NCBI GenBank assembly: GCA_028714615.1
Contig: JAQTMA010000173.1
Span: 1 to 8,785 of the forward strand
Length of the DNA stretch: 8,785 bases
Reading direction: 5' to 3'
From: Anaerolineaceae bacterium
Lineage (GTDB): Bacteria; Chloroflexota; Anaerolineae; Anaerolineales; Anaerolineaceae
Shown in pieces: positions 4,300 through 8,342 of this stretch (the stretch's first letter is position 1; every line of letters starts with the position of its first letter). The position numbers and the translations under genes are program-made. The notes beneath the pieces are model-generated. The model searched no databases. It was not told where the DNA came from and was given only the letters and a program-made list of their open reading frames with translations.

Positions 4300-4309
4300 A
4301 AGTACTCTT

Positions 4310-4469
4310 TCTCGCGCAGAGGCGCGAAGGCGCAGAGGTTTTTTTATTATTTCTCGCGCTGAGACGCGGAGACGCAGAGTTTTTTTATTATGTCTCGCGC
4401 AGAGACGCGGAGACGCAGAGTTTTTTTATATAAAGTTTTTCTCAGCGCCTCTGCGCCTCTGCGCGAGAC
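4310..4469 (+). repeat. Palindromic repeat cluster: three direct units and one inverted unit
   Basis: Three direct copies start at 4310, 4352 and 4393 (period 41-42 nt). Each has a TCTCGCGC head, a purine-rich core made of CGCRGAGA-like octamers, and an AT-rich tail beginning with seven T. A fourth, inverted copy lies at 4441-4469. Copy three (4392-4420) and the inverted copy can pair as a 29-nt imperfect stem (about 25 matches) around a 20-nt AT-rich loop. The inverted copy supplies the last eight codons and stop of the GxxExxY gene. The cluster fills the gap between that gene and res. No run of U follows the stem on either strand, so it is not a standard terminator. Confidence 0.85.
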
Positions 4470-4879
4470 CTATGTTCTTCTTCCAGTCCATTGACGGCGC
4501 GCACGATGCCATCTTTCATGAGGGCAGCTCCAAAGTTGAACAGATATCCGAGCTTCAAGTCCGTCAAGCGTAAATACGTTTGGATTTGCTTCCGGTGGGC
4601 CAGGTTCATCTGCTCCAACGACTTCAATTCAATGATGACCTTTCCTTCAACCAATAAATCCGCGCGAAAAGCATCCTCGAACTGGATGCCCTGATAAGCA
4701 ATCGTGATCGGAACCTGGCGCTCGACGCGCAAGCCCCGTTGGCCGAGTTCGTGCGCCAGCACCACTTCGTACACTGATTCCAGCAACCCCGGCCCCAGCT
4801 CGCGATGGACAGTGATGGCCGATTCAATGGATATCGTCCCGATCTCGTTTTCAGAATACTTCTCGCGCTTAGTTTGCAT
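4442..4879 (-). CDS. GxxExxY protein, PD-(D/E)XK nuclease-like
   Basis: The product is 145 residues. It carries the signature motif GLLESVY (31-37) following the helix AITVHRELGP, then the strand-strand core FRADLLVEGKVIIELKS (71-87) with D74, E84 and K86 in the D...E-x-K arrangement of the PD-(D/E)XK nuclease fold. The later HRKQIQTYLRLTDLKLGYLFNFG segment is also typical. The active-site residues are present, but no biochemical activity is well established for this family. A purine-rich GAGAGAAAG lies before the ATG as a modest ribosome site. The last eight residues (SRAEAQRR) and the stop codon come from the flanking palindromic repeat, so the original C-terminus was probably replaced. Repeat clusters flank both sides, and the gene splits mod and kilA-N from res, suggesting later insertion. 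Confidence 0.9.
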   Translation of the reverse strand: MQTKREKYSENEIGTISIESAITVHRELGPGLLESVYEVVLAHELGQRGLRVERQVPITIAYQGIQFEDAFRADLLVEGKVIIELKSLEQMNLAHRKQIQTYLRLTDLKLGYLFNFGAALMKDGIVRAVNGLEEEHRSRAEAQRR

Positions 4880-4918
4880 TTATTTCTTTCTCTCACATAG
4901 GCACGGGGTGATAAATAT

Positions 4919-5016
4919 GTCTCGCGCAGAGGCGCGGAGGCGCAGAGAAAAACTTATTAAAAAACTTTGCGTCTCTGCGTCTCAGCGCGAGACATAAAAA
5001 AAACTTTGCGCGAGAC
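4919..5016 (+). repeat. Palindromic repeat cluster between kilA-N and GxxExxY genes
   Basis: One direct copy of the same repeat (4919-4947) faces an inverted copy (4969-4993) across an AT-rich spacer. A truncated second inverted end (about 5003-5016, finishing GCGCGAGAC) follows. The direct and inverted copies can form a long stem with several G-U or mismatch positions. The cluster lies in the 165-nt gap between the KilA-N stop (5045) and the GxxExxY start (4879). Short frames read through it only because the repeat lacks stops in some frames. Confidence 0.82.
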
Positions 5017-5044: not shown

Positions 5045-5863
5045 TTAATTTCCCTCGCCGAGCTGATCCAATCGAGCGTGATCGGTTAAGAGCCGCATCT
5101 GTTGGATAGCGATCTGGTTCAATTTGCGCAGGCGCTCCGGTTGGGGGATTTGCTCCTGGATGAAAAGAGCGTTCAGGTTTTCCAGGTTGGAAAGACAAAC
5201 CAGTTGAGATACGCTGGCTGTATCGCGAATATTGCCCTTCTCCCCGGGATGGCTATCGCGCCACTGCCTGGCGGTCAAGCCGAATAAGGCCATATTGAGC
5301 ACATCCGCTTCGGAGGCGTAAATGTTATTGATCTGCGGCTGCGTTAACGCCGGTGGGATCAGGTTTTCTTTGATGGCATCGGTATGAATTCGATAGTTGA
5401 TTTTGGCCAGATTCCGGCGGATATCCCAGCCGAGCTGTTTGCGCTCGTCTTCCTTCAGCCGCTGGAACTCCTTGATCAGGTACAACTTGAATTCAACCGA
5501 GATCCACGAGGCGAATTCGAAGGCGATATCCTTATGCGCGTATGTTCCCCCATACCGGCCGGCTTTCGAGATCAGGCCAATCGCATTCGTCTTTTCAATC
5601 CATTGCTTCGGCGTTAATGTAAAACTATTTAGGCCTGCTTGTTGTCTAAACCCGTCGAATTCGACGGGATTAAAATTAGGATTGTTGAGTTGTTCCCAGA
5701 TTCCCAGGAATTCGATGGTATTCCGATTGCGAATCCAGCCCCTGATCAAATCATCCGTTCTGTCCTGGTTTTTATATCGGGCGATATCGGTGATACAGAT
5801 GTAGTCCTCTTCGTTAACATTGTAGAAAGAGACGTTGTTCGACAATACTGTGATCTTTTTCAC
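5045..5863 (-). CDS. KilA-N domain protein linked to Mod
   Basis: This 272-residue protein carries a KilA-N domain at about residues 15-136, with the strand EDYICITDIARYKN, the helical DDLIRGWIRNRNTIEFLGIW and the conserved GGTYAHKDIAFEFASWIS block. KilA-N is a DNA-binding fold first known from phages and large DNA viruses. The C-terminal half is helical and charged with no recognised catalytic motif. Translation starts at GTG (5863-5861), overlapping the mod TGA by 4 nt, and the strong GGGAGGAG about 8 nt upstream decides this start. Proteins with very similar N-terminal motifs recur next to type I and III methylase genes, so a role in the restriction system (specificity, regulation or protection) is likely but not shown. 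Two sampled segments near its 5' end have 40% and 48% GC, below the 3' half of mod. Confidence 0.9.
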   Translation of the reverse strand: MKKITVLSNNVSFYNVNEEDYICITDIARYKNQDRTDDLIRGWIRNRNTIEFLGIWEQLNNPNFNPVEFDGFRQQAGLNSFTLTPKQWIEKTNAIGLISKAGRYGGTYAHKDIAFEFASWISVEFKLYLIKEFQRLKEDERKQLGWDIRRNLAKINYRIHTDAIKENLIPPALTQPQINNIYASEADVLNMALFGLTARQWRDSHPGEKGNIRDTASVSQLVCLSNLENLNALFIQEQIPQPERLRKLNQIAIQQMRLLTDHARLDQLGEGN

Positions 5864-8094
5864 CGTTTCGCTCCTCCCACCGTGACCTCACAGATGGTCA
5901 TGGTGTCATTGCCGAAGATATCCACGACTTTGACGGCCAATTTGCGGCGGCCGGGCTCGCATTCGTGATAGACGCTGGTCAGTTCTAGCGCACGCTCTTT
6001 TTTGGTGCGGAAGGATTGCCATTCATTCTCGAAGATGTAATCGCCGGTCCACACCTCTTCATACTCGGGCATCTCCATCTGGACGTCCTGCTCGAACCCC
6101 TCCAGATGCACCGCAGCGAGCTTATCCTTCTTGACCCGGATGATCTCACGCTTGCTCTCGAAGTTGAAATCGATGGCCCAATAATCGATCCAATCCGTCC
6201 AGCTCTTGGTGAGCGCTTCGCGGGTGACGATGCCGTGCGCATCCTTGCTGACCTTGACGATCTGGCCCTTTTCGACGACGATCTTGCTGCCCTTATCTTT
6301 GAGGGTCTGCTCGGCGTTGGCGACCGAATCTTGCGAGTAGAACACCGAGAAGTCGGTCAATTGGATGGCGACGCTGCTGCCTTTGACCAGCGGTTTGACC
6401 TCGATGAAGGCCACGTCGTGGAAGACCACCTGGTTCTTCTCGACGGCGCGCTTATCGAAGACTTCGGCGGGGATGTACTTGGGGGCGATATCGATTCCCT
6501 TGGCGCGCGCCTCGTCGAGCACATTGGGGAAGAGCCCCATCTCGAACTCGAAACCGAGGATATCGACGCGGGTGATGTGCTTCTGGCGGCATTCCAGGAT
6601 GATCTCTTCGACAAACAGGCGCGTCACAGGCAGGTTCACCGGACCGACCGCCACCAGGCGCCCGGCTTTCTTGCCGTGAAACGTGTTGAAGCCTTCTGCC
6701 TTCTCGGCGCGATAGGCGCGCAGGATGAGGGCCAGGAAGGCGGCCTCTTTTTCTTCAAGCTGCTTTTGCTGCTCGGCCTCGCGCAGGTTGGGGTTGACGC
6801 CGATGTAGTGCTGGCGCTCGTACTTGCCCAGGTTGAGGATCTCAAAGGCGCGGTAGTCCTTGCCCTCGCCTTTGAGCTGGCGCTGGACGCCGATCATGCG
6901 CTTGCGGGTGGTGTGGATGGCGAACTTACCCAGGTCGCAGGCGATCCACTTGCGGCCGAGTTTTTCGGCGACGGCGGCAGTTGTGCCGGAGCCGCAGAAG
7001 AAGTCGGCGACCAGGTCGCCTTCGTTGGAGGATGCTTGATAAATCCGTTCAAGCAGAGCCTCGGGTTTTTGCGTAGGGTAGTCACATTTCTCAGATGATT
7101 TTGGATCAAGCCCTTTCATATCCCAGACAGAATCAACAGGTTGTCCTCGCACCTCGAATACAATATCATCTGGCTCAGGGTCTCGCTTATTTTTTTCTCT
7201 CCATTTATTTAAATACCGGATAAATCGACTATCCTGTATTGGCATTCTAGCACCTACTATGCAATTGTCTTCATTTAGGAAAGTATTCCATCTTTTAAAA
7301 TCGATTGTATCTTCGACATCTGTACCAAACACTTCATGGTATATATGCTCCGAACCTTTACGATATAACAGAAGATTGTCATGCTTTTTTGCGAAATACC
7401 CATGTGTTTGACCTTGAAATGTCCGATAATGCCACACAATATCATTTACCAGTTGCTGGCGGCCAAATATCTGATCTAATACAATGCGTAGGTATGCATG
7501 AAGACGCCAATCGCAATGGACATAGATGCTGCCATTATCCGACAACAAATCACGCATTAGCGACAGTCGTTCATAGATCATGGCGATGAAGGAATCCGAG
7601 CCTTTGCCCCAGGTATCGCGGTAGGCGATCTCTTCCAGGATGTTGGGTTTCTTAGTGAAGGTATCGCCACCGATCTCGATATCCATGCTGAAATCAGCGC
7701 CAACATCGAAGGGCGGGTCGATGTAGATCAGCTTGAGGCCGCCCTGCTTTTCGATCTCTTCACGCATGGGGCCGTTCTTGAGAGAGGAGAGGATCAGCTT
7801 GTTATCGCCCCAGATGAGCTTGTTGGTCCACCCTTGCAACTGCCGGCCGCGCGCGTCCAGGTTGAAGAAGTCCATCTGCAGGCGCGTGTCTTTTTCGGCG
7901 CGGGGCTCGTCGACCTGTTCGATGACCTGGAAGGGCAGCACGATGTTGCTCACCTGGTTGGTTTTGCCGTTCCAGACCAGCTCGACTTCGCGCCTATCTT
8001 GAAAGAGCAGGAAGCGGTACTTGTCGGGCAGGGGTTTGTCGGCTTCGATGTAGCGGACGATCTCTTGCTGTTCCTGGGGTGTCAGACGCGGCAT
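5860..8094 (-). CDS. mod: Type III Mod: site-specific DNA methyltransferase
   Basis: The product is 744 residues. It transfers a methyl group from S-adenosylmethionine to a base in an asymmetric site, most likely adenine N6, and gives Res its specificity. The motif order marks a beta-class enzyme: catalytic DPPF (126-129, in LIYIDPPFDVGADF), then a variable target-recognition region (roughly 210-335), then YPTQKPEALLERI (339-351) and the cofactor site DFFCGSGTT (364-372). A long C-terminal region (400-744) is typical of Mod proteins paired with Res. An AGAGG about 8 nt before the ATG supports this start; a nearby upstream ATG (8098) is out of frame. The gene overlaps kilA-N by 4 nt. The target-recognition part has clearly lower GC than the rest. 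No simple-sequence repeat that would cause phase variation is visible in the gene. Confidence 0.96.
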   Translation of the reverse strand: MPRLTPQEQQEIVRYIEADKPLPDKYRFLLFQDRREVELVWNGKTNQVSNIVLPFQVIEQVDEPRAEKDTRLQMDFFNLDARGRQLQGWTNKLIWGDNKLILSSLKNGPMREEIEKQGGLKLIYIDPPFDVGADFSMDIEIGGDTFTKKPNILEEIAYRDTWGKGSDSFIAMIYERLSLMRDLLSDNGSIYVHCDWRLHAYLRIVLDQIFGRQQLVNDIVWHYRTFQGQTHGYFAKKHDNLLLYRKGSEHIYHEVFGTDVEDTIDFKRWNTFLNEDNCIVGARMPIQDSRFIRYLNKWREKNKRDPEPDDIVFEVRGQPVDSVWDMKGLDPKSSEKCDYPTQKPEALLERIYQASSNEGDLVADFFCGSGTTAAVAEKLGRKWIACDLGKFAIHTTRKRMIGVQRQLKGEGKDYRAFEILNLGKYERQHYIGVNPNLREAEQQKQLEEKEAAFLALILRAYRAEKAEGFNTFHGKKAGRLVAVGPVNLPVTRLFVEEIILECRQKHITRVDILGFEFEMGLFPNVLDEARAKGIDIAPKYIPAEVFDKRAVEKNQVVFHDVAFIEVKPLVKGSSVAIQLTDFSVFYSQDSVANAEQTLKDKGSKIVVEKGQIVKVSKDAHGIVTREALTKSWTDWIDYWAIDFNFESKREIIRVKKDKLAAVHLEGFEQDVQMEMPEYEEVWTGDYIFENEWQSFRTKKERALELTSVYHECEPGRRKLAVKVVDIFGNDTMTICEVTVGGAKR
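7070..7565 (-). other. AT-rich target-recognition block within mod
   Basis: Hand counting gives 188 G+C in the 480 bases 7081-7560 (39%), with 32-37% over 7201-7380. Sampled flanks are 65% (6841-6900), 67% (6961-7020) and 60% (7861-7920). The block encodes about residues 177-341, i.e. the region between the DPPF and FCGSG motifs that determines target recognition in beta-class Mod proteins. Codon use also shifts towards A/T-ending codons. The reading frame is intact across both edges, consistent with recombinational replacement of this segment. Confidence 0.75.
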
Positions 8095-8173
8095 GCATGA
8101 CCTCTTGTTTGGCAGCGATCTACAGGGTGGAAAGTTTTCGGTTTATCTCAGGAGACATGGGTAGCTTACTACC

Positions 8174-8202
8174 ATTATAGATCAATTCTGCAGCGGACAG
8201 TT
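8174..8202 (-). promoter_or_regulatory. Candidate promoter for mod operon
   Basis: A perfect TATAAT (8179-8174, minus strand) lies about 80 nt before the mod start. At 17 nt spacing the -35 position holds AACTGT (8202-8197), a poor match, so activity may need an activator or the true -35 may differ. The leader of roughly 70 nt contains no obvious additional gene. The upstream repeat cluster begins about 10 nt further out. Confidence 0.42.
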
Positions 8203-8211
8203 GGAATTTCT

Positions 8212-8342
8212 GGCTCACGCAGAGGTGCGGGGGATTATTTTCATGCTCGCGCTGAGACGCGGAAGCGCAGAGTTTTTTTATAATGTTTTTCTCTGCGCCT
8301 CAGCGTCTCTGCGCGAGAAATAATTATTAATCTCTGAGCGAG
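8212..8342 (+). repeat. Palindromic repeat cluster upstream of mod
   Basis: A degenerate unit (about 8212-8230) is followed by a direct copy (8246-8272) and an inverted copy (8291-8317) of the family found around the GxxExxY gene. The two pair at 24 of 27 positions around an 18-nt T-rich loop. A short inverted remnant (about 8331-8342) follows. The cluster lies between the decayed NERD fragment and the mod promoter candidate. Confidence 0.82.

Follow-up and report, generated by a model that had tools for sequence, protein, structure and literature searches.

The mod gene studied here, part of what seems to be a type III-like restriction-modification (R-M) locus, probably carries a recognition segment (approximately residues 174-354 of Mod) that was exchanged en bloc with that of another Mod; we give this reading, which comes from sequence comparison, a probability of roughly 80%. 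The gene lies in an 8,785-nucleotide contig of an Anaerolineaceae bacterium, and this whole stretch of DNA is called the window below. En bloc exchange is well supported. The nearest relatives of the window's Mod by segment are not those by the rest of the protein (the body), and this upholds the original prediction of a recombinational import of the Mod specificity segment; the low GC of the segment, taken alone, is weak evidence.

The R-M locus and the low-GC3 block in mod

The mod product scored 156.5 bits against Pfam N6_N4_Mtase (cut-off 26.7) and 361.5 bits against PADLOC MTase_III. DPPF at residue 126, TQKP at 341, and FCGSG at 366 are presumably motif IV, the motif X region, and motif I, respectively, and together with a variable stretch at 201-340 they give the order motif IV, TRD, X, I of the beta class. 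The structure model has a fold near the EcoP15I and Mbo45V Mods, i.e., type III Mods, with the fold search barely testing the model outside residues 83-429. Please note that residue numbers in the model and in A1 are one below the Mod numbering because the reference of the model is without the first Met. The res-like protein combines a ResIII match above the cut-off with the patterns GAGKT (150), DEAH (300), PDFLVKL (823), and ETK (838), i.e., an SF2 helicase with a PD-(D/E)XK nuclease as in Res; a sequence match to solved structures was not found, and its 264.9 bits against NCBIfam NF046055 lie below the curated cut-off of 800 bits, which places it outside the BPTD_3080 family of restriction endonucleases. 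Both genes are on one strand with two small genes between them, the side-by-side arrangement of type III systems, and tblastn matched res in 77 of the 79 loci compared, which were taken from the best 80 of at least 488 stretches. No tandem-repeat tract as in phasevarions was found in 5860-8200 at a score of at least 30, and by that test mod is not phase-variable.

Table 1. Coordinates of genes, motifs, and segments in the window
Feature	Position	Strand	Basis
mod, beta-class N6/N4 DNA methyltransferase, type III-like, 744 aa	5860..8094	-	open frame; Pfam N6_N4_Mtase; PADLOC MTase_III; structure model
DPPF, Mod residues 126-129	7708..7719	-	pattern search; upstream of low-GC3 block
TQKP, Mod residues 341-344	7063..7074	-	pattern search; inside low-GC3 block
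FCGSG, Mod residues 366-370	6985..6999	-	pattern search; downstream of low-GC3 block
Low-GC3 block, putative exchanged segment as fitted from composition, Mod residues 174-354	7033..7575	-	two-edge fit
Hypervariable recognition segment used for comparisons, Mod residues 206-336	7087..7479	-	low identity across 79 loci
KilA-N domain protein between mod and res	5045..5863	-	Pfam KilA-N 80.3 bits; PADLOC PDC-S22 449.8 bits
GxxExxY (PDDEXK_3) protein between KilA-N gene and res	4442..4879	-
res-like helicase-nuclease, 899 aa	1600..4299	-	Pfam ResIII 50.5 bits (cut-off 22.5); patterns; tblastn

Several neighbors of mod are worth recording. The start of the KilA-N gene overlaps the end of mod by 4 bases, and tblastn found a KilA-N match between mod and res in 11 of the 79 loci (L009, L012, L014, L026, L033, L045, L047, L050, L064, L071, and L075); it is possible that this is an accessory gene of the R-M family. 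The GxxExxY protein was matched in three of the 79 (L015, L042, and L069), and an Mrr-type (type IV-like) restriction gene at 335-1243, which adjoins the R-M genes, in none of them. Copies of an intergenic repeat family, whose core resembles TCTCGCGCAGAGRCGCGGAGRCGCAGAG, lie at 4303-4473, 4911-5003, and 8235-8336; both direct and inverted ones occur, and a T run often follows. These repeats flank the GxxExxY gene and sit upstream of mod, and none lies at the edges of the recognition segment.

The count of 188 G/C among the 480 bases of 7081-7560 (39%), from which the import had been proposed, was reproduced exactly, and mod is open throughout its 744 codons, in line with the intact frame that had been claimed. 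The flanks had been put at 60-67% GC, which holds for 6600-7080 (61.3%) and fails for 7561-8041 (56.8%). As to the edges, the low-GC block is real, but the fitted block is wider than had been described (543 versus 480 bases, 63 more). The drop sits at third codon positions, and positions 1 and 2 change little: in 20-residue blocks, GC3 is 0.25-0.45 within residues 181-340 and 0.70-1.00 outside 181-360, the last four residues excepted. Briefly, a two-edge fit placed GC3 at 0.33 inside the block and 0.82 outside, with edge ranges (2 log units) of residues 172-175 and 353-358, and a log-likelihood gain of 72.9; the highest gain among 40 codon shuffles was 10.1. The block takes in motif X and the strands ahead of the recognition domain.

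Relatives of the window's Mod by body and by segment

The loci compared are 79 on genome contigs, from the best 80 of at least 488 confirmed stretches; they come from many phyla and are mostly metagenome-assembled records. Identity along mod, a test set beforehand, was not uniform across them: averaged by 20-residue block, identity to the window ranges over 0.59-0.98 in the body, apart from 661-680 (0.21) and the last four residues (0.18), versus 0.11-0.39 in the blocks of 201-340. Residues 661-680 (6055-6114) form a second short variable stretch, with gaps at 0.49 and a poor model.

The nearest body to that of the window (P0068) is 92% identical in the body and 21% in the segment. We sorted segments into groups by single linkage at 45% (there are 25 groups at 40% and 80 at 50%), and the first body carrying the window's segment group ranks 59th of 209: this is P0019, with a segment identity of 42%, which, like P0104, joins the group weakly. 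The next is P0002 (body 88%, segment 78%), whose body identity to the window of 0.85-0.88 makes it a fairly close body with the same segment group, a point against the exchange. Along the protein, the eight nearest rows for residues 1-180, 360-540, and 541-744 all belong to other segment groups, those for 206-270 and 271-336 all belong to the window's group, and the nearest rows for 181-205 and 337-359 are mixed.

The same discordance appears among near-identical bodies. For the pair comparison, 196 of 199 Mods were usable (three dropped), and the protein listing behind it holds the best 120 of 7998 by total score; 250 mutually non-independent pairs have bodies at least 95% identical; the segments are below 35% identity in 200 of these pairs and at 50% or more in 29, i.e., near-identical bodies carry unrelated TRDs, as TRD exchange predicts. 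The correlation between body and segment identity is negative, which is partly an effect of picking by total score, and we left it out of the evidence.

Related TRDs were likewise found in distant bodies. Among the closest kin of the window by segment (76-81%) are Mods whose bodies are clearly more distant. A search that used the segment and nothing else matched 131 proteins; among the 120 listed, 88 were new, and 76 of these have all three stretches. In 30 of the 76, the segment is closer to the window's than both catalytic stretches are (P0151, P0196, and P0200 are examples), and in 54 it is closer than at least one of them. P0151 (Aeromonas veronii) has 0.63 in the segment versus 0.38 and 0.49 in the catalytic stretches, and P0200, from an archaeal record, 0.63 versus 0.33 and 0.43. 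An attempt to reach a second Mod family through P0151 matched three of 388 genomes, but two of these matches fall in the window's own family, and the one close P0151 relative (L116) aligns to the window's segment at 31% (GC3 0.66 versus 0.74). As a separate observation, the window's segment group also occurs beside further Pfam domains in P0172, P0196, and P0200 (PF04480/PF18741, PF01844, and PF04471), which are of nuclease type and accompany the methylase there.

A segment shared through vertical descent is contradicted by the body tree. It holds 210 Mods (three duplicates and five more were dropped from 218), and the 60 segment groups need 121 changes on it against a minimum of 59; 100 shuffles gave a mean of 151 and a lowest value of 145. 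When all other groups are pooled and set against the window's, 18 changes are required (shuffles: mean 46, lowest 39). Segment groups are thus clustered on the body tree yet change often.

The GC3 trough across the family

Host GC was judged from neighboring genes. Among 78 other Mods from the best 80 of at least 488 stretches, 76 have a segment whose GC3 does not exceed that of its flanks. The mean difference is -0.27, and the window, at -0.52, has the largest drop among the 79 Mods (L043 was left out of this comparison). With 12 more Mods, segment GC3 is below body GC3 in 86 of 90, and regression on body GC3 gives a slope of 0.39 and leaves the window with a residual z of -1.8; the mean segment-body difference is -0.01 in six Mods with a body GC3 below 0.45. 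Over 75 loci, mean GC3 is 0.71 in the body, 0.61 in neighboring genes, and 0.43 in the segment, which falls below the neighbors in 72 loci while the body stands above them in 66. Since low GC is common to nearly the whole family, GC alone is weak evidence for a recent import in the window's lineage; the AT-rich segment is a family rule and does not by itself indicate that anything recent happened in the window.

Two-edge fits were made for 77 Mods, three short coding sequences of 80 being left out. The fitted edges bracket the segment in 55 of the 77, the window counted, with medians at residues 188 and 350; the best fits of L024 and L063 fall at the gene end and are uninformative on the segment. 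Many of the relatives are metagenome-assembled records, and it might be asked whether two mod genes were joined artificially in a metagenome contig. We regard this as extremely improbable: the frame is kept across both edges, and the same architecture recurs in these 55 fits from many assemblies, isolates among the records.

Could the segment simply evolve fast under diversifying selection, relaxed codon selection lowering its GC3, with no exchange at all? Fourfold-site GC in the body does fall mildly with conservation, from 0.79 to 0.68 in the least conserved columns; in the segment, however, it is 0.39-0.43 at conservation like or higher than that of the body columns. Fast evolution cannot yield the 30 of 76 proteins whose segment is closer to the window's than both of their catalytic stretches are, and the discordant pairs contradict it, which leaves it scarcely credible. 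Weak conservation as the cause of the dip is ruled out by the fourfold-site comparison (0.39-0.43 in the segment versus at least 0.68 in the body).

The recurrence of the dip at similar edges in hosts of many phyla would also be expected if selection on segment codons or mRNA kept the segment AT-rich whatever its origin, in which case composition would be silent on exchange. Three results speak against such selection, which we consider quite unlikely: the six Mods with a body GC3 below 0.45 have no mean difference; the segment of L034, which belongs to the window's group and is 79% identical to the window's, has a GC3 of 0.63 in a body of 0.56, so the protein does not force AT codons, the same-group segment being GC-rich in another host; and six Chloroflexota methylases with a 101-aa middle segment have no dip, their GC3 differences lying between -0.06 and +0.02.

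The last six come from a set of 19 Chloroflexota methylases (L090, without a full methylase, was left out) in which the middle segment is lower in GC3 in 14, with a mean of -0.116. Four of the 19 are of the window's family (L082, L083, L085, and L092; L085 is the same place as L036), and in the remaining 15 a dip of at least 0.2 is present in four (L081, L084, L088, and L096) and not in eleven. L088 has a 105-aa middle segment and shows the dip; short length alone is therefore not decisive.

Two further observations concern the distribution of this Mod. Putatively viral IMG/VR contigs (L100-L110) encode it, with bodies 62-86% and segments 21-31% identical to those of the window, and segment GC3 is below body GC3 in nine of the 11. 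In an Elusimicrobia Mod (L058:634-2880), high GC3 is confined to the N-terminal part (0.87 in residues 22-161 versus 0.43 elsewhere); perhaps this is another kind of mosaic.

Segments across the family may have been drawn repeatedly from a pool poorer in GC3 than most recipient bodies, and the common dip would then follow from this lower-GC3 pool. We also put forward, as a tentative and still doubtful suggestion, that a GC3 trough confined to the segment, with recurrent edges, marks continual TRD turnover from a shared AT-leaning, cross-phylum pool, being present in swapping Mods of GC-rich hosts and absent where the middle segment is fixed; the six trough-less methylases are assumed here to be non-swapping.

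Direction of the probable exchange, mechanism, and known systems

If a segment was exchanged, was the window's lineage the one that received it? We lean toward this view. A tree of 45 bodies places the window among Mods of other segment groups, and the segment tree, which rests on few columns with many forks open, sets it nearest to P0122, P0124, and P0127, of which P0127 comes from a Bacteroidetes bacterium (the L034 record); P0002 also belongs to this set, which has 14 members (support 87, not starred). The main alternative, which we hold to be unlikely, is that an old segment was inherited vertically in the window's lineage while its near relatives replaced theirs, the AT-rich dip being a standing family feature. 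The dip in 86 of 90 relatives agrees with it, and so does an AU test in which all 23 same-group bodies as one clade were not rejected (p 0.122); but two narrower clades were rejected, one joining the window's body to the main same-group bodies, 12 in number (p 0.0063), and one that adds a further six for 18 in all (p 0.040), these groups having been defined after inspection of the tree. Retention also sits poorly with the window's place as the most extreme of 79 in GC3 difference and with a segment tree that puts it beside Mods with distant bodies.

For the exchange that we favor, homologous recombination in conserved flanks, one before residue ~175-200 and the other between motifs X and I, would have swapped the segment in frame. 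The exchanged Mod would then methylate another site, and Res, which would read its site via Mod, could follow without change. The search for a donor with the segment covered sampled genomes of four phyla. In Chloroflexota, 134 of 400 genomes matched at E 1e-12, none near (best 37% over the whole length); in the phylum of L034, one of 395 matched at E 1e-50, the genome of L034 itself; in that of L001, two of 379, L001's own and one at 55%; and in that of L005, none of 398. Phage and plasmid records gave 173 and 177 segment matches, respectively, all below 60% identity, so that no donor, phage or other, was found in this material. Nor did the fetched loci contain a recent swap pair at the DNA level; the closest bodies there are 88.8% identical (L002/L033), and for this reason exact breakpoints could not be mapped.

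If the reading is true, one R-M body has been reused across many phyla with its specificity exchanged repeatedly, and it would then be unsafe to expect a close relative of the window's Mod to methylate the site that this Mod does. If the suggestion above is true as well, the third-position GC trough would be a quick test by which exchanged or swapping specificity genes of uncultured organisms could be spotted from one sequence at a time.

Our literature search, with most subscription papers outside its coverage, returned the precedents named here and no paper on the window's Mod family. As far as the accessible text of PMC3311624 goes, modA of Neisseria and Haemophilus influenzae has conserved 5' and 3' mod parts around a variable recognition domain, such domains were acquired en bloc from other species, and that of modA12 has 28% GC versus 40% in both flanks. 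Recognition-domain exchange in type III systems, an AT-rich one included, is thus published for modA, and the basic process is already known. The window's Mod is like modA in being a type III-like mod with conserved ends, a probable en bloc domain exchange, and, as in modA12, an AT-rich domain. From the same text, modA belongs to two host-adapted genera and is phase-variable, whereas the window's family has bodies 60-90% identical across many phyla and the window's mod has no repeat tract; the GC3 dip in nearly all members is a trait of the window's family, unlike modA.

The accessible portion of PMC3983042 credits Furuta and Kobayashi 2012 with the finding that type III TRDs can pass from one Mod to a non-orthologous one, with recombination taking place where conserved methylase motifs are encoded, and the occurrence of the window's segment group in Mods with 33-50% identical catalytic stretches is alike; that case centers on Helicobacter pylori, and a GC3 trough is absent from its description in that portion. 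Segmentally variable genes, conserved enzymes with one variable recognition segment and methylases as an example, have in general no significant GC difference between variable and conserved parts but biased codon usage, according to the part of PMC387263 available to us, and the window's mod differs from them in its strong GC3 difference. Against the type III Mods of solved structure, the window's Mod has ~24% identity to EcoP15I (PDB 4zcf; PMC4490356, in its accessible part) and ~18% to the Mbo45V Mod (7dsu), and it is longer (744 aa versus 644 in this comparison), with a C-terminal part barely tested by the fold search. Less usual features here are the spread over many phyla, a GC3 trough that recurs at similar edges throughout the family, and the absence of that trough in six related methylases of equal middle length.
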